A stretch of 64,000 nucleotides of DNA, taken from positions 248,001 through 312,000 of the forward strand of contig JADCGA010000001.1 of the NCBI GenBank assembly GCA_020249265.1. The letters are read 5' to 3'. The stretch comes from Roseomonas sp. GTDB taxonomy: Bacteria; Pseudomonadota; Alphaproteobacteria; Acetobacterales; Acetobacteraceae. Positions 3,953 through 51,804 of this stretch are shown one piece after another. A program made the position numbers and the translations under genes. A model generated the notes under the pieces. The model saw only the letters and a list, made by a program, of their open reading frames with translations, was not told the DNA's origin and did no database searches. The stretch's first letter is position 1; each line of letters opens with the position of its first letter.

Positions 3953-4903
3953 ATGAATGAGAGTTTGAACGCCACGGGCTTGGATTTCACCCTGCCCGTG
4001 GCTGAACGTGGCTATCGCTGGTGGTATTTGGATGCGCTTTCCGATGATGGGGCGCATGGCATTACGATTATCGCCTTTTTGGGCACTGTCTTTTCCCCCT
4101 GGTACGCATTTGCACGGCGCGGCGGTGGTGGTGATCCGCTGAACCATTGCTGCATGCATGTGGCGCTTTACGGCAAGCCGGCGCGCTGGGCGATGACGGA
4201 TCGCCCGCGCGGTGCGCTGCGGCGCGGCGCAGATTTTTTGCAAATCGGGCCGAGTGCCATGCGCTGGGATGGCACCAAGCTGGTGGTTGACCTTGTGGAA
4301 GTAACCGCGCCAGTGCCGGGCAAGTTGCGCGGGCGCGTGACGCTTTATCCCGAGGCGCTATCGCATCGCCACTTTCAGTTGGATGGCGCGGGGCGGCATC
4401 ATTGGCAGCCAATTGCGCCGCGTTCCCGGGTGGAAGTGGCGTTTGATAATCCTTCATTGCGTTGGTCCGGCTTTTCATATTTTGACACCAATACTGGGAC
4501 TGCACCGCTGGAAGAGGATTTCATTTTCTGGGATTGGTGCCGCGCGCCCATGCCGGAAGCGACCGCCATTTTGTACAATGCATCGCGCCGCGATGGGTCG
4601 TCGCAATCGCTGGCGCTTCAAGTGAACCGCGCCGGAGAAGTTGCGGATATGCCAATTCCCGCGCCCGCCACCATGCCGCCTGGGTTTTGGCGCGTGCCGC
4701 GCCCGACACGGTCTGAGGATGGCAAGGCAGAACTGGTGCGCGCGCTGGTGGATGCTCCCTTTTATACGCGGTCCGAAATCCGCACGCGGCTTTTGGGGCA
4801 GAATGCTATTGCCGTGCATGAAAGCCTGGCGCTGAACCGCTTTGACAATCTGGCGGTGCAAGCGCTGATGCTGCCCTTTAAAGTGCCGCGGGCGCGGGGC
4901 TAA
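3953..4903 (+). CDS. crtC: Carotenoid 1,2-hydratase CrtC
   Basis: CrtC adds water across the C-1,2 double bond of neurosporene or lycopene, giving 1-hydroxy carotenoids on the way to spheroidene or spirilloxanthin. The 316-residue protein shows the family segments RGYRWWYLDALSDDG, GTVFSPWYAFARR, LNHCCMHVALYG and FDTNTGTAPLEEDFIFWDW. It starts the carotenoid block, reads away from the aldolase gene and ends convergent with the ATP-grasp gene with four bases of overlap. With crtD and crtF also present, the expected end product is of the spirilloxanthin series. Confidence 0.93.
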   Translation: MNESLNATGLDFTLPVAERGYRWWYLDALSDDGAHGITIIAFLGTVFSPWYAFARRGGGGDPLNHCCMHVALYGKPARWAMTDRPRGALRRGADFLQIGPSAMRWDGTKLVVDLVEVTAPVPGKLRGRVTLYPEALSHRHFQLDGAGRHHWQPIAPRSRVEVAFDNPSLRWSGFSYFDTNTGTAPLEEDFIFWDWCRAPMPEATAILYNASRRDGSSQSLALQVNRAGEVADMPIPAPATMPPGFWRVPRPTRSEDGKAELVRALVDAPFYTRSEIRTRLLGQNAIAVHESLALNRFDNLAVQALMLPFKVPRARG

Positions 4904-6024
4904 TCATACCAACCAACATCGAGCGTTGCCACTTCCCCGAAGGGCACACCGCGCGCCATGGCCATGCGGATGATGGGCCATGACGTTGCTGTCATGGTCA
5001 GGAAGGGCATGGGATCGCGCCGGTCCCAAGTGACGTCGCGCGTGGAAAAGAGTTGGCGTAGATTTTCGCGAAACGGGCCGCGCCGGAACAGCGACATCTG
5101 CGTTTCAGTCAGCGCCGAATAGAATTGCTGAAGGCGCGTTTCAGGCCGATAGCGTGGCGTGAAGCCTGGTTCCAGCACGGCGCGCGCAATATCTTCGCGC
5201 TGCCAGAAATGCAGCCCGCTTGTCGTGCGCGGGTTGCACTCAATCCCCCAGGGCTGGCCGGCCTCATCCAGCATGATGTCGAAGGCGATGAAGCCGGTCC
5301 ATTGCGCGGCGGCGACGAAACGCGTGATCCAATCTTCAATCGCGGGGTGTTCTACCCGTTCAAAGGCAACCGCGACCGAGCCTGATTTCTGCGCCGCACG
5401 GTAGATGACGGTGGAGGAAACGCGCCCGTTATGCGCGATGGAACATGAACTATACTCCGCGCCCATCACGCAGCGCTGCACAATTGTGGGAATCGCGGGA
5501 TCAGGCGCGGGCAAGGCAGCGCCGGCGGGCAATAGACGCACGCCGCGCCCGGAACAGGAATGCACCGGCTTGACCACCACCGGGCCGGATTGCACCAAAG
5601 CCCCTGCCGCTGGATCGCCGAGCGCATGGGTCTCCGGCACGGCAAGGCCCCAAGCTTCTGCCTGTTGCGCAAAGCCGTGCTTGTTGTGGAGCCGGAGCAA
5701 ATTTTCCGGCGGCATGGTGAAAAGCCGCGTAGTGGCGGGCAGACTATCGCGCAGGAAGGCGACATGCATGGTTTCTTCCGAAACCGGCACAACAAGATCA
5801 ATCTTCTCATCCGCGATGATGCGCCTCAGGTCAGCCAGGTAGGCCTGCTTGTCCTCAGCCGGCGCCGTCACGCGATGGCTTTGTGCCACTGCGCGGGAAG
5901 CGCCCGCCAGATGGCGCTTGAAGGGTTCCGCCACCACAACGCGCCAACCAAGATCAGCAAAGCCGCGCGCAACATCCAGCGCCTTGGGCAGACGCCCGAG
6001 GGTCAGCAGCACATTGCCTGTCAT
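4900..6024 (-). CDS. ATP-grasp enzyme, substrate unknown
   Basis: A 374-residue ATP-grasp protein. VVVKPVHSCSGRGVRLL (about 149-165) supplies the ATP-binding Lys152 and Gly-rich loop. FIAFDIMLDE and WGIECNPRTTSG (about 245-270) supply the Mg-binding acidic and Asn residues. The N-terminal fold (NVLLTLGRLPKALDVAR) looks like a pre-ATP-grasp Rossmann domain. The family joins a carboxylate to an amine, thiol or similar via an acyl phosphate; the substrate cannot be read from the sequence. The start at 6024 overlaps the TGA of the P450 gene (ATGA), so the two are almost certainly co-translated. No carotenoid enzyme of this type is known to me. Confidence 0.8.
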   Translation of the reverse strand: MTGNVLLTLGRLPKALDVARGFADLGWRVVVAEPFKRHLAGASRAVAQSHRVTAPAEDKQAYLADLRRIIADEKIDLVVPVSEETMHVAFLRDSLPATTRLFTMPPENLLRLHNKHGFAQQAEAWGLAVPETHALGDPAAGALVQSGPVVVKPVHSCSGRGVRLLPAGAALPAPDPAIPTIVQRCVMGAEYSSCSIAHNGRVSSTVIYRAAQKSGSVAVAFERVEHPAIEDWITRFVAAAQWTGFIAFDIMLDEAGQPWGIECNPRTTSGLHFWQREDIARAVLEPGFTPRYRPETRLQQFYSALTETQMSLFRRGPFRENLRQLFSTRDVTWDRRDPMPFLTMTATSWPIIRMAMARGVPFGEVATLDVGWYD

Positions 6025-7406
6025 GCCGCGCGGGTGACGCGGCACATCACCTGCCGCGCCGGGCGCGTGGTAAGCCGCGCGGCGGGGCGTACATCACCAG
6101 GCGCTTCGATGTGGAAATCAAAATGTCGAAACAGCCGCGCAATCAGCAGCACCGCTTCCACCTGTGCAAAAGCAGCACCCGCGCAAACCCGTGGGCCAAT
6201 GCCGAAGGGAATATAGGCGCCCGTGGTCATTTCCGCCTCACGCTCTGGCAGGAAGCGATCTGGGTCAAACAAATGCGGATCGCGCCAATAGGCCTGGTGC
6301 CGATGCAGCACCCAAGGTGCCACCATGATCAGCGCGCCCTTCTTCACCGGGTAGTCACCGATGCGCGTTGCTTCATTGGCTACGCGCGGCAGAAAAGTGA
6401 TGGGCGGATAGAGCCGGAGCGTTTCACGAAACACATTGCGCACAAACAAAAGCTTGCGCGTATGTTCGAACAGGATCGGCCCAGGCCCAACGATTTCATC
6501 AATTTCAGCGCGCAACCTTGCGACCAAAGCGGGTTGTGTTGCGAGCAGATAGAACACCCAGGTCAGCGCGCTGGCGCTGGTTTCATGCCCGGCCAGGAAC
6601 AGCACACCAAGCTGATCAATCAGTTCTTCGCGCGTGAAGGCTTTGCCTTCCACATCATGCGCGGCGATGATGGCGCTCGCGATATCGTCAAAGCTGGTGG
6701 CGCCATCGCCCAAATGCGTATCCAGCAATTCGCCCAAATATCGCCGGATCAGGCCGCAGGCATTCAACACGCTTTCCTTTTGCGGAATACGTTTCCAGGC
6801 GCGGTCAAAAATCAGCCGGCGAATTTCCACCTGCGCGACGCTATGTTCAAATTCCGTGAAGGCGTCGAAGACCTCATGTGCCACACGTGTTTCGAGCCCC
6901 GTGGAGAACACCGTGCGGCAGATGATGTCTGCCGTCATGTGGCTCATCATCAGGTCAAGCGAAAAGCGCGTATCGCGCGCGGCGTGATCGGCAAGCGTTG
7001 CCTCGGCTGCCGCCGCACCGGCTTCCATCGCCGGAAAGGCGCGGTTGACGCGCATCATTGTCAAGGCGGGGTCAATCATGCCCCGCTGACGCCGCCAGGT
7101 GGCGCCGGAGGAGACGAAAATCGAATCGCCAATCAGCGGGTCCAGCGCATGCACCATCAGATCGCTTTTGGGCAGGATGCCCTTGGCATCCGTCAGCACC
7201 TCGCGCACCAAATCGGGGCGATTGACGATGATGGTGGACCGACGCGAATAGCCAAGCGGGCCGATCGGCATGCGATAGGCTTCTGCCGGCAAAAGCGAGA
7301 GCAAATCCCCATCGCCGCGGATCATGCAGCGCATCAGCGCAATCACCGCGGGCAAGGGTTCCGGGCGCGGGGGCGCAAAAGCACGGAAGGCAGGCACGTG
7401 ATTCAC
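6021..7406 (-). CDS. Cytochrome P450
   Basis: A 461-residue soluble P450 with all landmark motifs: I-helix AGHETS (272-277), K-helix ETLR (328-331), and the heme loop FGIGPRVCAG with the axial Cys408. The proximal WRRQRGMIDPAL segment is also typical. The start is a GTG at 7406 preceded by AGGGG. It overlaps the ATP-grasp gene and sits between crtC and crtD, which suggests hydroxylation or oxidative modification of a carotenoid or another lipophilic product, but this is inference from position. No ferredoxin or reductase gene lies beside it, so electrons must come from elsewhere. Confidence 0.93.
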   Translation of the reverse strand: MNHVPAFRAFAPPRPEPLPAVIALMRCMIRGDGDLLSLLPAEAYRMPIGPLGYSRRSTIIVNRPDLVREVLTDAKGILPKSDLMVHALDPLIGDSIFVSSGATWRRQRGMIDPALTMMRVNRAFPAMEAGAAAAEATLADHAARDTRFSLDLMMSHMTADIICRTVFSTGLETRVAHEVFDAFTEFEHSVAQVEIRRLIFDRAWKRIPQKESVLNACGLIRRYLGELLDTHLGDGATSFDDIASAIIAAHDVEGKAFTREELIDQLGVLFLAGHETSASALTWVFYLLATQPALVARLRAEIDEIVGPGPILFEHTRKLLFVRNVFRETLRLYPPITFLPRVANEATRIGDYPVKKGALIMVAPWVLHRHQAYWRDPHLFDPDRFLPEREAEMTTGAYIPFGIGPRVCAGAAFAQVEAVLLIARLFRHFDFHIEAPGDVRPAARLTTRPARQVMCRVTRAA

Positions 7407-7503
7407 GGCGCCCTACCCTGCGTGACGCCCAGGCAAGCGCGGGCGAAGGGGCGATGCGATCCTTGAGCTACCATGGCTGAATTCCATGCTTTACATTATT
7501 ATA

Positions 7504-7521
7504 TGTCAAGTGCGATTGTCA
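7504..7521. promoter_or_regulatory. Direct-repeat TGTCA half-sites in divergent intergenic region
   Basis: TGTCA occurs at 7504-7508 and again at 7517-7521, in the same orientation and eight bases apart. Half-sites of the PpsR operator have this sequence, but the genuine operator is inverted (TGTCA-N8-TGACA), so this is not a standard site. The surrounding stretch (7485-7505) is AT-rich and, on the minus strand, contains TTGACA followed at once by TATAAT. It could drive the P450 gene, the divergent membrane-protein gene, or both. Confidence 0.25.
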
Positions 7522-7543
7522 CTCGAAAGCCGGGGAGGCTCGG

Positions 7544-8287
7544 ATGGTCCTGTTCCTGTTCCATGCACTGGTCGCCGCCCATATCGTGACGGGCAGCATT
7601 GGCGCCATCGCTTTCTGGGTGCCCGTGATTGGGCGCAAGGGCGGCGCCAATCACGCGCGCTGGGGCAAGGTTTTCACCTTTGCGCTGCTGATCACCGGCT
7701 GCCTTGCCATGATGATGAGTCTGCTGACGCTGGCTGCGCCGATAGAAACCCACCCGCATCTGGAAGGCCGGTTTGATGAGGCTTTCATCCGCGGCATTTT
7801 CGGCTGGATGATGTTGATGACCGGCCTTTTGACCGTGAACCTTGCCTGGTATGGCTGGCTTTCCATCCGCAACAAGCGCCGGCATGAATTGAATCGCACC
7901 AGGCTCAATCTGTTTTTGCAATATGCGCTGATTCCGGCTTCACTCAATTGCGCCTGGCACGGTTGGATGATTAATCAGCCTTTGATGATTGGCATTTGCA
8001 TGGTGGGGTTGGCGACGGCGGCCACGAATCTCTGGTTTCTTTTGGCGCGCGAACCGGGGCCGGGATCCTGGATCAAGGAACATATCAAGGCTTTGGTGGG
8101 GGCGGGTATTTCCGTCTACACGGCCTTTTTGGCCTTTGGGTCTGTGCGTATCCTGCCCGAATTGGCGCTGAATCCCTTCATGTGGGCGGTACCGCTGGTG
8201 GTGGGTGTGGCGCTGATTATCTGGCATCGCCGCGCGGTGGATCGGCAATTCGCCGGGCGTGGGCGGCGGCTGAGCGCTGCAACCTGA
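7544..8287 (+). CDS. Polytopic membrane protein, DUF2306-like
   Basis: A 247-residue integral membrane protein with about six or seven hydrophobic segments. The pattern of an N-terminal LFLFHALVAAHIVTGSIGA helix followed by HARWGKVFTFALLITG recalls the DUF2306 family (His on the loop between helices), but the match is weak. It has a GGGGAGG ribosome site seven to twelve bases before the ATG. It is divergent from the P450 gene and ends one base before crtD, so it is likely co-transcribed with crtD. Its role in carotenoid or membrane biology is unknown. Confidence 0.65.
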   Translation: MVLFLFHALVAAHIVTGSIGAIAFWVPVIGRKGGANHARWGKVFTFALLITGCLAMMMSLLTLAAPIETHPHLEGRFDEAFIRGIFGWMMLMTGLLTVNLAWYGWLSIRNKRRHELNRTRLNLFLQYALIPASLNCAWHGWMINQPLMIGICMVGLATAATNLWFLLAREPGPGSWIKEHIKALVGAGISVYTAFLAFGSVRILPELALNPFMWAVPLVVGVALIIWHRRAVDRQFAGRGRRLSAAT

Positions 8288-8288
8288 C

Positions 8289-9818
8289 ATGGCTGCCCCG
8301 CGCGTTGTTGTGATTGGTGCCGGCATGGGCGGCTTGGCGGCCGCCGCTGACCTCGCGCGGCGCGGTGCGGCAGTGACGGTGTTGGAACGCGCGTCGGCGC
8401 CCGGCGGGAAGATGCGCGAAGTGATGGTGGATGGTAGCCCGATTGATGGCGGGCCCACTGTCTTCACCATGCGCTGGATTTTCGAGGGGCTGTTTGCGGA
8501 TGCCGGCGCTTCGCTGGAAGCGGCGCTGCCACTGCAAAAGGCCGATATCCTGGCGCGGCATGCCTGGCGTGCTGGCGGCAGGTTGGATCTATTCGCTGAT
8601 ATCGCACGTTCCGTTGATTCCATCGGCGATTTTGCCGGTGCGGCAGAAGCACGCGGCTATCGCGCATTTTGCGCGCGCAGCGCTGATATTTTTCGCACCC
8701 TGCGCGGTTCCTTCATTGCCGCCGAACGTCCCTCCCCGCTTGATCTGGTCAAGCGTGTGGGCATTACGAATATCGCCGCGCTGATCCGCACCGCGCCGAT
8801 GAAGACGCTGTGGGACGCCTTGGGCGAGCATTTCCGCGATGCGCGGTTGCGCCAGCTATTCGGGCGCTATGCGACCTATTGCGGATGTTCACCCTGGTTG
8901 GCGCCAGCAACACTCATGCTGGTCGCGCATGTGGAACAGGACGGCGTGTGGTTTGTGAAGGGCGGCATGCGGCGCGTGGCGGATGCGATCCAGCGCTTGG
9001 GAGAAACCAAGGGCGCTGAATTTCGTTTCGGTTCGGAAGTCGCGGAAATTCTGACGCGCCAAGGCAGGGCTTGCGGGGTGCGGCTCGCCACTGGCGAGGA
9101 ACTCGCCGCTGATGCGGTGGTCTTCAACGGCGATGTGGCCGCGCTCGCGCAGGGGATGCTGGGGCAGGCGCCACGCAGCGCGGCAGAGGATACGCCGCGC
9201 GCTGCACGTTCCCTTTCAGCCGTCACCTGGTGCGTGAAGGCGCCGACTTCTGGTTTTCCCTTGGTGCACCATAATGTGTTTTTCGCCGAGGATTACGCGG
9301 CGGAATTCGACGCCATTTTTCGCAGACGCGATATCACCGCCGCCCCCACGGTTTATATCTGCGCGCAGGATCGCGAAGCTGGGCCGGGACCGGCAGCGGG
9401 CACACCGGAACGCATGCTCGTGCTGATCAATGCGCCACCTGATGGTGATCAGCGCGGCTATTCGCTTGATGAGACCACCGAACTTGGCGAACGTGGCTTT
9501 GGCCTATTGAAGGCTTGTGGGTTGCAGGTTGCGCGCGATGCGGGCGCGGAAGTCATTACCACGCCTGAGGGTTTTGCCCGGCTTTTTCCAGGTTCAGGCG
9601 GCGCGCTTTATGGCCGCGCGAGCCATGGAACCACCGGCACCTTCGCGCGCCCCGGCGCGGTGACGCGCTTGCAAGGGCTTTATCTGGCGGGCGGTTCCGT
9701 GCATCCCGGCCCGGGCATTCCCATGGCCGCAATGTCCGGACGCATTGCTGCAGCGCGGCTTTTGGAAGATTGGGCAGGGGCGCGTGGCGCGATCAGGATT
9801 GGCGCGGTGCGTGGTTAG
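8289..9818 (+). CDS. crtD: 1-hydroxycarotenoid 3,4-desaturase CrtD
   Basis: CrtD introduces the 3,4 double bond into 1-hydroxy carotenoids, using FAD. The N-terminus has the dinucleotide-binding motif VIGAGMGGLAAA and the CrtI-family GGPTVFTMRWIFEGL. The segment DGVWFVKGGMRRVADA together with YATYCGCSPWLAPATL is characteristic of CrtD rather than phytoene desaturase. The C-terminus carries GLYLAGGSVHPGPGIPMA, the usual carotenoid desaturase end motif. The gene follows the membrane protein directly and ends convergent with crtI with four bases of overlap. Confidence 0.9.
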   Translation: MAAPRVVVIGAGMGGLAAAADLARRGAAVTVLERASAPGGKMREVMVDGSPIDGGPTVFTMRWIFEGLFADAGASLEAALPLQKADILARHAWRAGGRLDLFADIARSVDSIGDFAGAAEARGYRAFCARSADIFRTLRGSFIAAERPSPLDLVKRVGITNIAALIRTAPMKTLWDALGEHFRDARLRQLFGRYATYCGCSPWLAPATLMLVAHVEQDGVWFVKGGMRRVADAIQRLGETKGAEFRFGSEVAEILTRQGRACGVRLATGEELAADAVVFNGDVAALAQGMLGQAPRSAAEDTPRAARSLSAVTWCVKAPTSGFPLVHHNVFFAEDYAAEFDAIFRRRDITAAPTVYICAQDREAGPGPAAGTPERMLVLINAPPDGDQRGYSLDETTELGERGFGLLKACGLQVARDAGAEVITTPEGFARLFPGSGGALYGRASHGTTGTFARPGAVTRLQGLYLAGGSVHPGPGIPMAAMSGRIAAARLLEDWAGARGAIRIGAVRG

Positions 9819-11356
9819 CTGCGACTGAGCGTATCGCCATGCGGCACAAGCTGATCCAAAACCTTGGCTGAGGAAATCACGCCCGGCACGCCAGCGCCGG
9901 GATGCGTGCCTGCGCCTACCAGATAAAGCCCCTGCACTTCTTCGCTGATATTATGCGGGCGAAACCAGGCGCTTTGGAAAAGCTGCGGTTCCAGCGCAAA
10001 GGCCGCGCCATTCACCGATAGCAGCCGATCCTGAAAATCCTGCGGCGTGATCATGCGTGATGTGACAAGTGCCTCACCAAGCCCTGGCAGTACGGTTTCT
10101 TCCAGGCGCTTTTCGATGGCCTGGCGATAGGGTTCCGCGTGCTTGGCCCAATCCACGCCACTGCCAAGATGCGGCACCGGCGCCAAGACGTAAAAGGAAT
10201 CGCAGCCAGGTGGTGCGAGTGAACTATCCGTCGCAGTCGGGCGATGCAGATAAAGGCTGAAATCCTCGGCCAAATGCTTGCGAGTGAAGATATCGTGCAG
10301 CAATTCCTGGTAGCGGGGCCCAAGCACCATCGTGTGGTGATAGACATCTTCATACCGGCGCTTAGTGCCAAAATACCAGACAAACAGGCTCATGGAATAG
10401 CGCGCACGGGCAATCTTGCGATCTGTCCAGCGCCGGCGCGGGTAATCCTGCAAAAGCTTGCTGTAAGTCCAGGCAACATCGGCATTGGAAACCACAATAT
10501 CGGCGGCAAGCCTTTCGCCATCGGCCAGCTCAACGCCTGTTGCGCGGCGGCCATCGGTGATGATGCGCTTCACTTCAGCATTATAGCGAATGGCCCCACC
10601 AAGCCGGATGGCCAGGTTGAGAATGCCTTGCACCAGCGCCCCCATGCCCCCCATGGCGTAATGCACGCCATGCAGTCGTTCAAGATGTGCAATAAGACAG
10701 TAATAGGCAGTGGTGGTCATGGGGTTCCCGCCGATCAGTAGCGGGTGAAAGCTGAAGGCAACGCGCAGCTTGTCGCTGGTGAAGTAATCACAGACGCGGC
10801 TATAGACGGTCCGATAACCCTTCAGCCGGATCAAATCCGGCGCCGCACTGATCAGGCTTGCAAGACTATGAAAGGGCTTATCCGCCAAATCGGCAAAGGC
10901 CACGCGAAAGATGCGTTCACTTTCCAGTATAAAGCGTTCGAAGCCTGCGCTATCCTGCGGCGCAATCCGCACCACCTCCGCCCGCGTGACATCAAGGTCA
11001 GCGGAACAGCGCATCACTTCGCCATCATCGAAGCGGATCAGATAGAAGGGATCCATGGCGCGCAAATCAATATCCTGCGTCAGATTGCGCCCGGCCAGCG
11101 CCCATAATTCTTCTAGCAAGTAAGGCGCAGTGATGATGGTGGGGCCAGCATCAAAAGTGAAACCATCCTGGCGAAACACGTAGGCGCGCCCACCAGCGGC
11201 ATCCAGCTTTTCCAGAATGGTCACGCGCCAACCGCGCGCGCCAAGCCGCACCGCCGCAGCCAATCCACCAAAACCGGAACCGATCACTATCGCATGCGGG
11301 CGCGGGTCTGTGGTGTGGTCCCTCATGCGCGCTTCACTTTGCATATCATAAGGCAT
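9815..11356 (-). CDS. crtI: Phytoene desaturase CrtI
   Basis: CrtI carries out successive desaturations of phytoene to neurosporene or lycopene with FAD. Features are AIVIGSGFGGLAAAVRL (FAD fold), DAGPTIITAPYLLEELW, the CrtI-specific HGVHYAMGGMGALVQGIL, and GLYLVGAGTHPGAGVPGV at the C-terminus. At 513 residues it has normal length. Several in-frame ATGs (11356, 11344, 11326) are possible and none has a strong ribosome site, so the start is uncertain by up to ten residues. The gene lies downstream of the puf terminator on the same strand, and no clear promoter was seen. crtB is not adjacent; it is 11 kb away with crtE. Confidence 0.92.
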   Translation of the reverse strand: MPYDMQSEARMRDHTTDPRPHAIVIGSGFGGLAAAVRLGARGWRVTILEKLDAAGGRAYVFRQDGFTFDAGPTIITAPYLLEELWALAGRNLTQDIDLRAMDPFYLIRFDDGEVMRCSADLDVTRAEVVRIAPQDSAGFERFILESERIFRVAFADLADKPFHSLASLISAAPDLIRLKGYRTVYSRVCDYFTSDKLRVAFSFHPLLIGGNPMTTTAYYCLIAHLERLHGVHYAMGGMGALVQGILNLAIRLGGAIRYNAEVKRIITDGRRATGVELADGERLAADIVVSNADVAWTYSKLLQDYPRRRWTDRKIARARYSMSLFVWYFGTKRRYEDVYHHTMVLGPRYQELLHDIFTRKHLAEDFSLYLHRPTATDSSLAPPGCDSFYVLAPVPHLGSGVDWAKHAEPYRQAIEKRLEETVLPGLGEALVTSRMITPQDFQDRLLSVNGAAFALEPQLFQSAWFRPHNISEEVQGLYLVGAGTHPGAGVPGVISSAKVLDQLVPHGDTLSRS

Positions 11357-11464: not shown

Positions 11465-12541
11465 TCATCGCGGCGTGGCATCCGCCGAACGTAGCGGGCC
11501 TTGATTGACCTGCTTCAATTCGGGGAAGTCACGCAGCATGGGTGCGCCATTCAGGGGACGATTCACGCCCTGGTGGCAAGTGGAACAATTCACCTTCAGC
11601 GGATCACCCATCACCCCAAGCCGCGGGCCATGCGGGCCTTCCGCCGGACCATTCGGGTTCTTGGCCCATAGCGGCTGCAATGGTTCGATATAGGACATGT
11701 TGATTTCCCGCACCATGCGGATGCCATGCCAGGCAGTCGTCCGCGCTGGTGGGCTTTCGGCCCATTCAGCGAAGGAACGGCTATTGTGGCAATATGTGCA
11801 ATTCACACCGAGCGATGAGGACATATGCATCATCAACGCATAGGTCCATTCAGTTGACATGGTGTTTTGAGTATTCCGCCCCGGCAGCGACGTAGTGCTG
11901 ATGTTACGGATTTCCTTGTCACCCAGCAAGAAGGGCGTGAAGGGATCAGACGGCAAGGAAGACAAACCGACTGAGGCCGCCGGGTGATTCTGCCCGCGTG
12001 GCGCCTGCAAGCCCGCGCGGCTATTCGGTTCCGTTGACCAGACCATGGTTGGCACCGCGTTGCCGCGATGGCAGGTGTAGCATGTCACGCCGGTTTGGCC
12101 GACATGCGTCGCCCATTCCGAATTGATCTTATGCGTCATCTGCAACATGCGCCGGGCGACAACTTTGGTATAGACTTCGTCGGACGCCATATTCTCAACA
12201 TTATGGCAATAGCCGCAGCCCTGATTGGGCGCGATCCATTCGGTCATCACCAGCATCAGGCGGTTGAATTGCGCTTCACTCAAATCGCGCAATACCTGCA
12301 CATTCTCATAGACCTCATGCGCCCTTGGGCCCGTTGCATCCGCAGCTTCGGGTGCTTCCGGCGCCTTATTGGCGGCGAGCAATGCCGGCAGGGTGCGTGG
12401 GTTTTCCACTTCACCCATCGAAAGGCCGCGGAAGCCGCCTTGTGTTGAGAAGACCGGTGGACGTTCAAAGGTGGTGACGAAGATCACCCCGCAAAGCAGC
12501 GCCACCACAAAGGCAGCGGTACTGAGTGAAAACTTGCTCAT
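11465..12541 (-). CDS. pufC: Reaction-centre tetraheme cytochrome c subunit PufC
   Basis: PufC binds the periplasmic face of the reaction centre and re-reduces the oxidised special pair. The 358-residue protein has four CXXCH sites: CGYCH, CYTCH, CTYCH and CSTCH, each in the expected spacing with Met ligands such as MLQMTHKI and MMHMSSS. The N-terminus has one hydrophobic segment (about 9-24) followed by ERPP. The only Cys there lies in ALLCG, which is a poor lipobox, so the protein may be held by an uncleaved helix rather than a lipid. The ATG overlaps the pufM TGA. It is the last gene of the puf operon. Confidence 0.96.
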
Positions 12542-13518
12542 CGCGGCGCTCCTTGAACGATGGAGGGATCAACAGCCGGTGTCCAAGGCATTGTGTAAGC
12601 CGGCGCAAAGTGCCGATCCACGGCCCAGAGATACCAGTTGTCAACAACAGTTCCGGTCAGCAGAATGCCGATCCCGCCCGCGACAGGGCAGAGGAAGGCA
12701 AACCACCAGGCCCAGCGGTGGATACTTTCAAACGTGGCGTTGAAGCCCATGGTCCAGCGCCAGAAAAGCCCACCGCGTTCTGCCGCAGTGCCGCGGTCCA
12801 GCGTCTGTTCGATTTCACGTTCACCGCCATAGCGCCCAAGCGCCAGGATGGTTGCGGCATGCATCGCAAACAGCAGGACAGAGCCGTAGAGGAATACGAT
12901 CGAAAGCGCGTGGAAGGGATTGTAGAACAGATTGCCGTATCGGATCGAAAACGCCGCTGTCCAATCCAGATGTGGGAAGATGCCGAAGGGTACCGCTTCG
13001 CTCCAGCTACCCATGGCAACCGGGCGGATGAAGCCCAGCACCAGGTAAAGCCAGATGGCACCGGCAAAGGCCCACGCGACATGCGTGCCCATGCCAAGTT
13101 GACGTGCGCGGCGATAGGTGCGCACCCACCAAAGTAGTATGGAAAGCGTCAGGAAAAAGCCAGCCACAATCCACCAGCCGCCCTTGTTAAGCGGCGGGAT
13201 GCGCAAGCCATATTCGGGCGGCGGCGGTTCCAGCGCTAGCCAGAAAAGCTGCCGGATGAATTCACTGACATTCCAATTCACTGAGGCCAGCATGGTAAGC
13301 CCGATGATCTCAAAGGCGATGAAGCCAAAGAGCAGCGAGAGAATACCAAGGTAGCCAAGATAGATCGGACCAATCTGTGCATCGCCCAGGCGCCCAAAAA
13401 GGTGCACCTCGCTTGCTGTGCCTTCGCGCGGAGAGTTATCGGCGGGAAGGGGAACACCAGGGTAGGGTGCTGGTCCGCGCACCTGTATCCGGGTGAAGAT
13501 GTTCTGATATTCGGCCAT
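12538..13518 (-). CDS. pufM: Reaction-centre M subunit
   Basis: The M subunit is one of two membrane subunits that hold the special-pair bacteriochlorophylls, bacteriopheophytins, quinones and the non-heme iron. The 326-residue protein has five hydrophobic helices. The His-containing stretches [15 protein letters not shown] and [17 protein letters not shown] give the special-pair and iron ligands, and [14 protein letters not shown] matches the conserved D-helix approach. It starts 21 bases after pufL with GGGAGGGAGAA as ribosome site and overlaps pufC by four bases. The short C-terminal extension after helix E is typical of species with PufC. Confidence 0.97.
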
Positions 13519-13539
13519 GGGAATTCTCCCTCCCCTCGC

Positions 13540-14364
13540 CTAGCGCCAAATCGGCAGGTTGAGCCACCAGCCCCACCATTCGGGCCAGCCGCGGGTCCAG
13601 AATGGACCACTAATCACGATGCAGATCGCACTCCAGAATCCAGCTGACAGCGCAAGGAAAAGACCGAGCCGATGGATACCAAGCGTGCCGATCGAATAAC
13701 CGATCAGGTCGCGGAAGAAGGTATTCTCATGCTCTGCGGTCTTGACAGGTTCACCTTCCGGCGGGTTGAGCGCCGAGAGAACCAATGCACCATGCAGCGA
13801 CAGCGCCAATACCGTGGTGAAGAAGAAGGTCACCGCGATCATATGCGCTGGGTTGTAGTGGAAATGCAGATATTGATAGCCGACATTGGACACCCAATCG
13901 AGGTGACTCCAAATGCCGTAGGGGAAACCATGGCCCCATGCGCCCATGAGCACCGGCCGGATCACGACCAGCGTGACATAGGCGAAAACCGCCACGCCAT
14001 AAGCGATGGGAATATGATACCCCATGCCAAGCTTGCGCGAGATTTCTGCCTGCCGCAGCGCCCAGGAAACAAATGCCCCGATCGCGCAGATGGTGATCAC
14101 CTGCCAAAGCCCGCCTTCGCGCATTGGCGCCAGGCGCAGCCCGTATTTGAGATCCGGCGGCGCGATATTGATCAGCCAGGGATTCCATGTCCCGCCAATC
14201 GCCGCGCCGTAGAGGATCAGGGCGGTTCCAACAAAGCTGAAAAATGCCGTGGTCACGCCAAAGAACCCGACATAGAAAGGCCCTATCCAGAAATCGAACA
14301 GGTCGCCCCCTATCAGGGTTCCGCCGCGGACGCGGTATTTCCGCTCAAAGCTCAACATCGCCAT
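13540..14364 (-). CDS. pufL: Reaction-centre L subunit
   Basis: The L subunit pairs with M to form the reaction-centre core. The 274-residue protein begins [20 protein letters not shown] and has five transmembrane helices. Conserved parts are [30 protein letters not shown] (special-pair His region) and [17 protein letters not shown] (iron and QB His). The ATG lies about nine bases after GGAG; a second in-frame ATG is six bases on. It is separated from pufA by 128 bases holding two hairpins. Confidence 0.97.
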
Positions 14365-20033: not shown

Positions 20034-20051
20034 TGTCAAGCAAAATTGACA
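20034..20051 (-). promoter_or_regulatory. PpsR/CrtJ operator and -35 of the bchC promoter
   Basis: TGTCAAGCAAAATTGACA is a perfect TGT-N12-ACA palindrome (TGTCA-N8-TGACA). On the minus strand its inner end supplies the -35 TTGACA (20034-20039), followed after 16 bases by TAGAGT. Binding of PpsR would block RNA polymerase, giving aerobic repression of bchCXYZ and read-through into puf. Confidence 0.8.
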
Positions 20052-20070: not shown

Positions 20071-21237
20071 TCAATCTGCGACATCGGCTTGCATCACCCG
20101 GGTCAACAGCGGTGTATCGGTGGGCATCAAGCGCGCGCCGCTGAAGCCGGCGGCGGTCAGCATCGCGGCCAGTTCATCCGGCCGGCGCGGGCGGCCCCTA
20201 CCCATCGCTAGCAGGTAAAAGCCGAAATAGGCGCCGCCCATTGGCTCGGCCCCGGCGGTGCCAGCCATGGGTTCGGCAATCAGCACTCGTCCGCCCTTGG
20301 GCAGGGCCGCGCGCACGCGCCCCAGCAGGGCTTGCACCACATCATCATCATGATCGTGCAGCACCCGCACCAGACTGATGATATCGGCGCCCAGTGGCAG
20401 CGAATCGGTGGTGAAATCCCCGCCCATCGCCATGGCACGATCGGAAAGCCCTTCGCGGGCAAAGCGCTGGCGCCCCTGTTCGGCCACCGCCGGCAGGTCA
20501 AACAACAGCAGATCAAGCCCGGGGTTTGCCTTGCCGACCGCCGTCAGAAAAGCGCCGCTGCCGCCGCCCACATCCATCAGCCGCCGATGCTGGCCGAAGC
20601 GGTAAGCCGCCAAGACTTCCTGCGCCACCATGGGTTGGCTGGCCGCCATCAAGGCCGTGTAGTCGGACACTTTTTCGTTTGGCAGGGCGTCCGGCTGCGC
20701 TGCCCCGGCATAGGCCCAGTATTGCGCCAGCGCCGTGCCGCCCCTTTCGCGACGCAGCAGCGCCACTGGGTCCGCAAGATCGGCGTAGAGCATGGCATGG
20801 TGTTCGACCATGGCGGCAATTCCCGGATTGCCGATCATGGCCGCGCCCAATTCACCAAGCGCCCAGGCGCCATCCGCACGCCGACGCACCAGCCGGAGCG
20901 ACTCGGCAGCCACCAACAGCCGGCTCATCGCCTCAGGCGTCAGGCCGCAGCGCGCGGCCAGCGCCGCTTCGCTCGTTGGGGCTTCATGCAGGATTTCAAA
21001 AAGCTTCAGCCGCACACAGGCGGCCAGCACCTGCGAATAGACAAAGCCAGCGCAGAGATCGAACAATTCCCGCGCGCGGCGCCGCGCCAAGGGGCGGGTC
21101 AGCGGAAAACGCGCGGCCCAGGCACGAAAACCGGGGCGGGCAGTCAGCGATTCCCGCCAAGCGGTGAAGCGATCCGCCCAAGAAGGGGCTGGTTCCCGAT
21201 CAGCCCCTTGCGGCGGCAGCGGCATGGCCCTCGCCAT
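20071..21237 (-). CDS. crtF: Hydroxyneurosporene/rhodopin O-methyltransferase CrtF
   Basis: CrtF methylates the 1-hydroxy group of carotenoids with SAM, forming the methoxy ends of spheroidene or spirilloxanthin. The 388-residue protein belongs to the O-methyltransferase 2 family: an N-terminal dimerisation helix region with FDLCAGFVYSQVLAACVRL, the SAM-binding LMDVGGGSGAFLTAVG, and the catalytic region LVRVLHDHDDD. The C-terminus has GGRVLIAEPMAG. The start at 21237 comes one codon after the crtE stop. It is the last crt gene before the bchC promoter. Confidence 0.93.
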   Translation of the reverse strand: MARAMPLPPQGADREPAPSWADRFTAWRESLTARPGFRAWAARFPLTRPLARRRARELFDLCAGFVYSQVLAACVRLKLFEILHEAPTSEAALAARCGLTPEAMSRLLVAAESLRLVRRRADGAWALGELGAAMIGNPGIAAMVEHHAMLYADLADPVALLRRERGGTALAQYWAYAGAAQPDALPNEKVSDYTALMAASQPMVAQEVLAAYRFGQHRRLMDVGGGSGAFLTAVGKANPGLDLLLFDLPAVAEQGRQRFAREGLSDRAMAMGGDFTTDSLPLGADIISLVRVLHDHDDDVVQALLGRVRAALPKGGRVLIAEPMAGTAGAEPMGGAYFGFYLLAMGRGRPRRPDELAAMLTAAGFSGARLMPTDTPLLTRVMQADVAD

Positions 21238-21240
21238 GGT

Positions 21241-22107
21241 TCAGGCCGTGGCCAGCTTGCGCGGCAAAAGCCGCCCCACTTCATCCAGCATAGCCGCGCG
21301 CAGCAGGCTACGACCGGGGCAGGCAGGAATCGCTTCCACGGCCCCATTCGCCAAGGTTTTCAGGCGCGCCACAGCGCCATCCAGGCCCAATTGCAGCACG
21401 GCTGATGGCCGGCCCAATGCCTTGTCGCGACCAACGGGCTTGCCGATGCTCGCTTCATCTTCCACCGCGTCGCGCAGGTCATCGGCAACCTGGAAGGCCT
21501 CACCCAGCCGATCCCCAAGCAAGCGCCAGGCTTCGGCATCAGCAACACCCGCGGCAGCCGCGCCGGCAACCGATGCGGCGGCAAACAGCGCGCCGGTCTT
21601 TTGCCGCTGATATTCGGAAAGATCGGCGCGCGGTTCGCATTCCCAGGCCTGGCCAGCGACAATGCCGAAGGGCACGCCAACGCCATCGCCAATGGCATTG
21701 ATCACCGGGCCAAGCCGTTCCGGCGCAGCGCAGCCGGCGCGCGCAACGGTCTGGAAAGCCAGCACAATCAGCCCATCCCCAGCGAGAACCGCCAGCGGTT
21801 CGCCAAAGGCGCGATGCACGGAAGGCCGGCCCCGGCGGGTATCGGCATCATCGAAACAGGGAAGGTCATCATGCACCAGGCTGGCGCAATGCAGTAGTTC
21901 AATCGCGGCGGCGGCCGCGCTGGCAAGCCTTGGCTGGTCATCACCGCAAGCCGCCGCGACCGCAAGCGTCAGGCGTGGGCGGATGCGCGCCCCTTTCGGG
22001 AAAACCGCGTGGCGCATGGCGGCTGCAAGGCGGGGCGGCGCGCCGCTCGCCTCGGCGGAGAGCACCGCGTCAGCGAGGCTGCTCTCAATACGGGCCAAGG
22101 CGTCCAT
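21241..22107 (-). CDS. crtE: Geranylgeranyl diphosphate synthase CrtE
   Basis: CrtE adds isopentenyl units to make the C20 GGPP used for carotenoids and the bacteriochlorophyll tail. The 288-residue protein has both Asp-rich motifs of trans-prenyltransferases: LVHDDLPCFDDADTRRG (first, DDxxxxD type) and FQVADDLRDAVEDE (second). KGARIRPRL marks the conserved Lys/Arg for IPP binding. It starts 105 bases downstream of crtB and has a PpsR site in that gap, so it likely has its own light- and oxygen-regulated promoter driving crtE-crtF. Confidence 0.94.
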   Translation of the reverse strand: MDALARIESSLADAVLSAEASGAPPRLAAAMRHAVFPKGARIRPRLTLAVAAACGDDQPRLASAAAAAIELLHCASLVHDDLPCFDDADTRRGRPSVHRAFGEPLAVLAGDGLIVLAFQTVARAGCAAPERLGPVINAIGDGVGVPFGIVAGQAWECEPRADLSEYQRQKTGALFAAASVAGAAAAGVADAEAWRLLGDRLGEAFQVADDLRDAVEDEASIGKPVGRDKALGRPSAVLQLGLDGAVARLKTLANGAVEAIPACPGRSLLRAAMLDEVGRLLPRKLATA

Positions 22108-22178
22108 GCGGGACCTCCCGAGGGGTGGCGCGAGCGGATCGCGGCAGCCCTTTGTATGTTTTGTTAGACTGTCATGAT

Positions 22179-22196
22179 TGTCAGCTTATATTGACA
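22179..22196 (-). promoter_or_regulatory. PpsR/CrtJ operator upstream of crtE
   Basis: TGTCAGCTTATATTGACA is a perfect TGT-N12-ACA palindrome between crtB and crtE. A second inverted repeat, TTGACAC-TT-GTGTCAA at 22191-22206, overlaps it and gives a minus-strand TTGACA. The -10 is not clear. The crtE ATG is 72 bases downstream. Repression of crtE and crtF by PpsR is the expected effect. Confidence 0.75.
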
Positions 22197-22212
22197 CTTG
22201 TGTCAAGGCTTT

Positions 22213-23250
22213 TCATGCCCGCGCCGCAAAACGGCTTTCGCGATCCATCCGATCCATCAATTCCAAGGCCCAAACCAACCTTTCGCCATAGCCGGCACCA
22301 AGCGGCGGACCTTCCGGCGCGGCGGCAGCGCGCACCGCATCCACCAGAAAGCGCGTGGCCGGTGATGGCGCTTCATCCGCGCCATCCTGTTGCGCGGCGA
22401 GAGCACCCGCCGCACGCGCCAAAAGCCAAGCCTTGCGCCGGCCCGAAACCACCGCGCGGCGAGAGACGGAATCGAGACCCTGGCGTTCCACCTCTCGCCC
22501 GATTTCCGCATAGACAAGGCGCGCCGCGCCGATCCCTGGTCGGCAATCCCAAGGCAGCAGCGCAATGCCTGGCCAGGCGCGGCGATAATGCGCTTCCGCA
22601 GCACCCAAAAGCCGCGCCACCACGCGGCCAAGCGCGGGGGAAAAGACCGGATTCGCGATCAGCGCTTCCGCCGAGAGCCCTTCTTCACGCAACCAGGAAA
22701 GCGGCAGATAAACCCGCCCTGCCTTGGCATCTTCGCCGACATCACGGGCGATATTCGTCAATTGCATGGCAAGGCCAAGATCACAGGCGCGCGCAATCGC
22801 TTCCGCTGAACGCACGCCCATCAGCAGTGTCATCATCGCGCCCACCGTGGCGGCGACGCGTGCGGCATAGGCTTCCAGCGCGGCGATATCCTCATAGAAA
22901 CGGCCTTCGGCATCCCAGGCGAAGCCTTCCAACAGCGCCGCCGGCAGGGCACGTGGCACGCCATATTGCGCAACCACGGCCGCGAAGGCGCGATCCGCCA
23001 CATGATCCCAGGGCCGCGCGGCATAGGCGCCATCCAAGCGCTGGTGCAGCAGTTCCAGCGCGGCCGCGGGATCATCGCTCATGTCAATCGCGTCATCCGC
23101 GACTCGGCAGAAGGCATAAAGCGCGGCAGCAGGCGTGGCGATGCGGCGCGGCAGAAGAAAGGACGCGGCGCGGAAGCTTTTCGAACCGCCCGCCAAAAGC
23201 CTGTTGCAGGCAGCGAGATCCTCGACCGAAATGCCGATCAATCCGGACAT
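22213..23250 (-). CDS. crtB: Phytoene synthase CrtB
   Basis: CrtB joins two GGPP to phytoene. The 345-residue protein has the two substrate-Mg motifs of the squalene/phytoene synthase family, YAFCRVADDAIDMSDD and LTNIARDVGEDAKAGRVYLP, and the N-terminal GGSKSFRAASFLLP. The ATG at 23250 with GGGGG upstream is preferred to a GTG two codons earlier. The gene lies 24 bases after the DUF3422 gene, so it may be read from the bch operon as well. Confidence 0.94.
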   Translation of the reverse strand: MSGLIGISVEDLAACNRLLAGGSKSFRAASFLLPRRIATPAAALYAFCRVADDAIDMSDDPAAALELLHQRLDGAYAARPWDHVADRAFAAVVAQYGVPRALPAALLEGFAWDAEGRFYEDIAALEAYAARVAATVGAMMTLLMGVRSAEAIARACDLGLAMQLTNIARDVGEDAKAGRVYLPLSWLREEGLSAEALIANPVFSPALGRVVARLLGAAEAHYRRAWPGIALLPWDCRPGIGAARLVYAEIGREVERQGLDSVSRRAVVSGRRKAWLLARAAGALAAQQDGADEAPSPATRFLVDAVRAAAAPEGPPLGAGYGERLVWALELMDRMDRESRFAARA

Positions 23251-23274
23251 GCGCACCCCCGCATTTTCATTGCT

Positions 23275-51786: not shown

Positions 51787-51804
51787 TGTCAATCAAAATT
51801 GACA
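51787..51804 (-). promoter_or_regulatory. PpsR/CrtJ operator upstream of the unknown gene
   Basis: TGTCAATCAAAATTGACA is a perfect TGT-N12-ACA palindrome. It differs from the bchC operator at 20034-20051 by one base of 18. The minus strand holds TTGACA at its end as a possible -35; no clear -10 was found. It lies between two minus-strand unknown genes. Confidence 0.75.

Follow-up and report, generated by a model that had tools for sequence, protein, structure and literature searches.

Among described systems, the one closest to the genes discussed here belongs to the producers of gemmatoxanthin. Gemmatoxanthin is described as a linear methoxylated carotenoid with a free carboxylic acid at C16, an aldehyde at C19' and a single broad absorption band (PMC8342508). 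From its name, the acid end keeps the C1=C2 double bond and the opposite end carries the methoxy group (PMC8342508), and because C1=C2 is retained the acid end has not been hydrated by the 1,2-hydratase. The genes for the oxidation steps are left open by the authors of that paper, and the term P450 does not occur in its text. The subject of this work is a cytochrome P450, together with an overlapping ATP-grasp ligase and a membrane protein of 247 residues (M247), encoded in a 64-kb stretch from a Roseomonas sp. of the Acetobacteraceae (contig JADCGA010000001.1, positions 248,001 to 312,000; the window, meaning this whole stretch).

At about even odds (a probability of roughly 0.5), the P450 and M247 oxidise a terminal methyl group on an acyclic carotenoid to give an acid, which the ligase then conjugates, probably to an amine. 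It is very probable that the unit acts on carotenoids, an end-group acid is slightly favoured as its product, and the ligase step is the least certain part of the explanation. The linkage of the unit to carotenoid (crt) genes is strong; what we infer is the substrate, oxidation at C16, how M247 takes part and which partner the ligase uses. A wider proposal, put forward tentatively, is that in aerobic phototrophs of several phyla the P450 and M247 are the missing end-group carboxylase, and that in one lineage the ligase makes a class of amide carotenoids overlooked so far because of spectra like that of spirilloxanthin.

The genotype of the gemmatoxanthin producers resembles that of the window. 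In G803, taken as Gemmatimonas phototrophica AP64, and in G853 (G. groenlandica TET16), the M247 and P450 genes are same-strand neighbours with a gap or an overlap of 8 bp, and crtI, followed by crtB, is about 2 kb from the pair. These spacings come from gene calls, in which some overlapping frames are mis-called; gene order elsewhere is from tblastn. The AP64 P450 is 55% identical to that of the window, so that orthologs of the P450 and M247 are common to the window organism and the producers. Neither genome has a ligase match at E<=1e-15. The P450 and M247 would be the genes that make gemmatoxanthin. In other Gemmatimonadaceae (L126, L182) M247 directly adjoins crtI. Genome G778, presumably G. 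aurantiaca T-27, has neither a P450 nor a reaction-centre match. The carotenoids described for T-27 are oscillol and deoxyoscillol rhamnosides (PMC11271474). Across 30 Gemmatimonas genomes, 21 carry both the P450 and the reaction centre and five carry neither.

Proteins encoded by the unit

The P450 is read from a GTG start and has 461 residues. It matches PF00067 at 251.3 bits (E 2.3e-74; cut-off 22.8 bits) and is the sole match to this family in the genome of 3.96 Mb. The original prediction, made from the letters of the window, had recognised it by its heme cysteine, AGHET and ExxR motifs, and this was borne out: Cys408, AGHET (272-276), E328 and R331 are invariant in all 15 sequences of an alignment of the window P450 with 14 orthologs (51-78% identity to the window). 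The family match, the heme cysteine, ExxR and AGxxT together place it in the P450 superfamily. None of the ten NCBIfam P450 equivalog models listed (pentalenene oxygenase and others) reaches its cut-off, the best being 176.7 of 800 bits. The closest solved P450 by sequence is the plant carotenoid hydroxylase LUT5 (CYP97), found as a distant match by both profile and phmmer searches.

M247 is modelled with confidence as seven helices (mean predicted local distance difference test score, pLDDT, 94.0), and no solved structural relative of it was found. Its orthologs have four nearly invariant histidines. PF10067 (DUF2306) is matched weakly by 33 of 45 members (best 6.5e-5); the window copy is not among these and has no match in Pfam or NCBIfam. 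Among 299 Acetobacteraceae genomes M247 is present in 31 of 32 that carry the P450 and in none of the 267 others, the single P450 genome without it being an assembly of 510 contigs (G618). Because of this strict co-occurrence a direct role of M247 with the P450 is argued. The M247 gene lies between the P450 and crtD and is divergent from the P450. The P450 and ligase had been placed between crtC and crtD, which holds for the pair, but M247 separates the P450 from crtD. The motif TGTN12ACA, presumably the PpsR/CrtJ-type palindrome, is found in 15 of 68 P450/M247 intergenic regions (for example L089, L106 and L114), above the shuffled expectation; an exact copy was not found in the window's own P450/M247 region.

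The ligase reading frame was called mechanically from a GTG at 6045, and the ATG at 6024 yields the ATGA overlap with the P450 that had been predicted. The protein matches PF02655 at 28.5 bits (cut-off 23.2). The putative ATP/Mg residues K115, K152, D249, E262 and N264 are conserved without exception in the window ligase and 50 orthologs (35-66% identity). The structural model (mean pLDDT 95.1; best Foldseek match E 4.1e-16) is closest to the L-amino acid ligase BL00235, PylC and PurK, with 11-17% identity and query TM-scores of about 0.55-0.63. The family match, the putative ATP/Mg residues and the fold place it in the ATP-grasp superfamily; its best family model, NF005315 (PRK06849), gives 255.8 bits, below the 406-bit cut-off. 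The modelled fold fits carboxylate-amine ligases and acyl-phosphate chemistry and does not name the acceptor, so that an ester would also be possible. Relatives of the ligase with about 30% identity occur on plasmids (L066, L067 and L068) in a recurring cluster with KASIII, an NAD(P)-dependent oxidoreductase, an MBL hydrolase and an F390/CoF synthetase, joined in two of the three by a GNAT. This is possibly an undescribed biosynthetic cluster.

Occurrence and history

The P450 was followed in 59 genomes of relatives and in 299 members of the family, one 299-genome set being taken for the counts of the P450, M247 and reaction-centre genes. In the two samples its matches fall into bands of identity of about 70-100%, 53-56%, and about 41% or less. 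The 32 family genomes referred to above carry a P450 of the upper two bands (E<=1e-140). In all 26 with a P450 of about 70% identity or more, the ligase and M247 adjoin it; the remaining six have no ligase anywhere at E<=1e-15. Reaction-centre genes (PF00124 above cut-off) occur in 96 of the 299 genomes, and in 29 of the 32 P450 genomes vs 67 of the 267 others (Fisher p 4e-13, uncorrected for kinship). The three P450 genomes without such a gene are G534, G618 and G702, two of which are less than 81% complete, and the pair was not seen to be common outside phototrophs, which would have told against the original prediction. Most of the sampled phototrophs (67 of 96) are without the P450, yet nearly all carriers are phototrophic.

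Beyond the family, named genomes were scanned and the best 80 of 592 matching stretches were taken; the scan uses exact-match patterns, so that absence from it means little. The P450 is at least 49.5% identical to that of the window at 60 of these loci and below 45% at the other 20. The ortholog loci are labelled Alpha-, Beta- and Gammaproteobacteria and Gemmatimonadota, with names as deposited, some of which look mis-assigned, and most are metagenome-assembled genomes. The labels include Roseomonas, Falsiroseomonas, Roseococcus, Sphingomonas, Novosphingobium, Candidatus Phycosocius, Limibaculum, Luminiphilus and HTCC2080, and some of the assembled genomes are labelled Methyloversatilis, Burkholderiales or Acidobacteria. 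It had been suggested that the pair be sought in other photosynthesis clusters, and it is found there: crt or photosynthesis genes stand at 53 of the 60 ortholog loci (crt genes at 52), M247 at 53 and the ligase at 43, and none of the 20 distant loci has crt or photosynthesis genes, M247 or the ligase. The ligase is on the same strand as the P450 at 24 of its 43 loci and on the opposite strand at 19. Reaction-centre genes were detected in 29 of 30 ortholog genomes vs 4 of 20 controls; these 30 of the 60 orthologs were picked mainly for few photosynthesis genes in view, all 20 controls were included, and the test overlaps the family sample, at least G724 and G725 matching the reaction-centre places of G518 and G523.

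A P450 tree of 89 rows was built by a quick method with no bootstrap, near-copies, incomplete reading frames and L001-L021 being excluded. All 56 crt-linked P450s fall in one clade of 64 rows (Shimodaira-Hasegawa-like approximate likelihood ratio test, SH-aLRT, 99). A crt link is missing from the other eight rows of the clade, five of which come from stretches shorter than 5 kb. The ligase accompanies 43 of the 47 rows of one subclade (support 82; 98 for the inner 44) and none of the 17 elsewhere in the clade. Two long branches, L063 and L143, join in the tree, and L099, which is outside it, has its ligase on another contig of its genome. The original prediction of a P450 and ligase pair is thus modified: the tie to the carotenoid genes of phototrophs stands, but the core is the P450 with M247, and the ligase is confined to one P450 subclade. 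The P450 and M247 probably came first, the ligase would have been gained once and lost a few times, and transfer between phyla is likely.

Proposed function and its alternatives

The P450 and M247 are proposed to be a carotenoid-tailoring oxidase of aerobic anoxygenic phototrophs, in which M247 may be the membrane partner of the P450, as an electron donor, an anchor or a second oxidase. The P450 would take a psi end that CrtC has left unhydrated on an acyclic carotenoid and oxidise its terminal methyl group (C16) stepwise to a carboxylic acid, as in gemmatoxanthin; successive P450 turnovers can carry a methyl group to an acid. The acid end would be kept from CrtC, CrtD and CrtF, and the pigment would be asymmetric, methoxylated at one end and carboxylated at the other. 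The ligase of the window's lineage may then activate the acid as an acyl phosphate and couple it to a nucleophile, with an amine the likeliest candidate, to give a conjugated carotenoid. In the gemmatoxanthin producers, which lack the ligase, the acid is free, and a conjugate is predicted where the ligase is present. A carboxyl product is favoured over in-chain oxidation because ATP-grasp ligases of the adjoining kind usually activate carboxylates.

Pigment data are available for a few organisms outside Gemmatimonas. The genome taken as Elioraea tepida MS-P2 (G462) has reaction-centre genes and no match to the P450 or M247. Comparison with standards is reported to show spirilloxanthin and some 3,4-dehydrorhodopin in Elioraea tepida (PMC8781829), in agreement with the original prediction that spirilloxanthin synthesis needs neither the P450 nor the ligase. 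A Roseococcus sp. (L090) carries the P450, M247 and the ligase. According to a review (PMC12654162), light transfer in Roseococcus thiosulfatophilus involves a C30 carotene-dioate and its diglucosyl ester.

Several observations weigh against the proposed function. The match to Roseococcus is at genus level only and concerns C30 pigments. The likeness to LUT5 is distant and may be general P450 kinship, membership of a family such as CYP97 being set by convention at about 40% identity. Luminiphilus syltensis NOR5-1B, which we take to be the same strain as Ivo14, has the P450, M247 and the ligase (L101). Extracts of Ivo14 are described as showing by UV/visible spectroscopy the peaks of bacteriochlorophyll a and spirilloxanthin and no additional pigments (PMC3679898), and according to a 2025 review the main carotenoid of Halieaceae is spirilloxanthin. 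The Ivo14 spectrum would weaken the proposal rather than refute it, as an end-group acid outside the conjugated chain would leave the spectrum unchanged. The genotype and the chemistry match in four isolates, three of one genus, to which Luminiphilus adds nothing. For gemmatoxanthin, CruH-like proteins were suggested by the authors as the source of the acid (PMC8342508), and the complexes of G. groenlandica are reported to contain some spirilloxanthin besides gemmatoxanthin (PMC12817894). The AP64 P450 is 1.3 Mb from pufLM, and the link to crtI is loose in AP64 and TET16 because tig and clpP intervene; in AP64 the far side of the P450 is occupied by clpX and lon (all read by eye). Two of the 30 Gemmatimonas genomes have the P450 without the reaction centre and two the reverse. 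Lastly, the four rows of the ligase subclade without a ligase have none elsewhere in their genomes.

An alternative that we regard as rather unlikely is that the P450 works elsewhere on the carotenoid, by oxidation of the C19 or C20 methyl group to an aldehyde, hydroxylation at C-2 or formation of a keto group, and that the substrate of the ligase is another acid or a different product. Gemmatoxanthin's C19' aldehyde, to which no gene is assigned, could be a P450 product and so counts against an end-group acid; the genes for rhodopinal are likewise unassigned, and in two genomes the P450 adjoins crtA, an oxygenase of acyclic carotenoids. However, gemmatoxanthin with its in-chain aldehyde gives a single broad band and Luminiphilus, with the P450 and M247, gives three peaks, which tells against the shared product being an in-chain aldehyde, and an adjoining ATP-grasp ligase better suits an acid.

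It is also conceivable, and in our view improbable, that the unit modifies another lipophilic product (the bacteriochlorophyll tail, a quinone, a hopanoid or a lipid) and was placed in the block for co-expression only. In its favour, the neighbours at L114 are bch genes and pucC with no crt gene, the roughly 21 kb in view at L128 and at L129 hold no photosynthesis gene though their genomes carry reaction-centre genes, and the P450 of G. phototrophica has tig, clpP and clpX (by eye) as its closest neighbours. This alternative is difficult to reconcile with the crt gene at 52 of the 60 ortholog loci, with the crtI that is still within about 2 kb where the P450 of Gemmatimonadaceae lies away from the photosynthesis cluster, and with the 67 of 96 family phototrophs that do without the P450. 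That an ordinary P450 and ligase were merely caught in a photosynthesis cluster with no pigment function is very improbable: the ligase relatives of about 30% identity do belong to unrelated clusters, but the unit turns up repeatedly in different phyla, with differing gene order and both ligase orientations, its catalytic residues intact.

If the preferred function, oxidation of the carotenoid end group to an acid, is correct, it offers candidate genes for the oxidation step left open in the gemmatoxanthin paper and a set of enzymes with which carotenoid acids and conjugates could be made. It predicts that some aerobic phototrophs scored as spirilloxanthin producers by UV/visible spectra alone hold acidic or conjugated carotenoids. 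Such an unnoticed and widespread end-group chemistry would alter the reading of pigment data from aerobic phototrophs, because the carotenoids used in light harvesting influence how antennae assemble and transfer energy.

The locus and known systems

The features of the locus are collected in the table. The names crtF, crtE and crtB are readings of the translations by eye. No crtA was recognised by eye in the translations of the 64-kb window.

Features of the Roseomonas sp. locus, in positions of the window
Feature	Position	Strand	Basis
Cytochrome P450, proposed carotenoid terminal-methyl oxidase	6021..7406	-	PF00067, invariant motifs, orthologs in crt blocks
ATP-grasp ligase, 374 aa from ATG, proposed conjugating enzyme for carotenoid acid	4900..6024	-	PF02655, invariant residues, model
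ATGA stop/start overlap of P450 and ligase	6021..6024	-	ATG 6024-6022 and TGA 6023-6021 in the sequence
M247, 247-aa seven-helix membrane protein, distant DUF2306	7544..8287	+	Co-occurrence, model
Divergent P450/M247 intergenic region	7407..7543	.	No exact TGTN12ACA
crtC, carotenoid 1,2-hydratase	3953..4903	+	NF045922 is best model, 294.5 bits, under 400-bit cut-off
crtD, 1-hydroxycarotenoid 3,4-desaturase	8289..9818	+	NF045637, 686.7 bits vs 580 cut-off
crtI, phytoene desaturase family	9815..11356	-	TIGR02734, 612.4 bits vs 238.1 cut-off
pufM and pufL, type 2 reaction centre	12538..14364	-	Two PF00124 matches in the genome of the window
crtF, crtE, crtB	20071..23256	-	Read by eye from translations

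The total of TGTN12ACA sites across the window equals the chance expectation. Those that end in TTGACA are at 20034, 22179, 44177 and 51787; apart from the one at 51787, they lie near bchC, crtE and bchF (genes read by eye). Some related loci differ in gene content. Two genomes of the class have a crtA-type gene (L070:6884-7654 and L071:7698-8480) immediately upstream of their P450; it scores 294.6 and 307.6 bits against NF045923 (cut-off 300), and M247 is absent from both stretches. Two crtD-like genes occur in L080 (6076-7521 and 11948-13333) and L087 (7596-8969 and 13435-14820), and also in L078, L079 and L086; in L080 and L087 the one adjoining M247 exceeds the CrtD cut-off and the one adjoining crtC gives 548.7 and 550.3 bits, below 580. 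The M247-P450 pair is flanked by clpP and clpX, as read by eye, in two Gemmatimonas genomes (L176:7298-11423 and L179:9436-13600).

The original prediction held that no pathway of this type had been described, and none was found in the open-licence literature. The window ligase shares its fold and catalytic residues with BL00235, PylC and NF005315, and its neighbours differ from the KASIII and F390-synthetase clusters of its plasmid relatives. CrtA, the spheroidene monooxygenase, carries out O2-dependent tailoring of acyclic carotenoids like that proposed here, but it is not a P450. The acids of the CruH/synechoxanthin, torularhodin and staphyloxanthin type arise by conversion of an end-group methyl to an acid, like the proposed product, with other or unassigned enzymes; those of the staphyloxanthin type presumably differ from the P450 and M247, and we know of no ligase paired with any of the three. 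LUT5 is the best solved sequence match and has a carotenoid as its substrate, but the window P450 is distant from CYP97, and CYP97 hydroxylases act on rings whereas the crt genes of the window imply acyclic carotenoids. The gemmatoxanthin producers are unlike the window in having no ligase, but like it they have the orthologous P450 (55% identity) with M247, about 2 kb from crtI (PMC8342508, PMC12817894).

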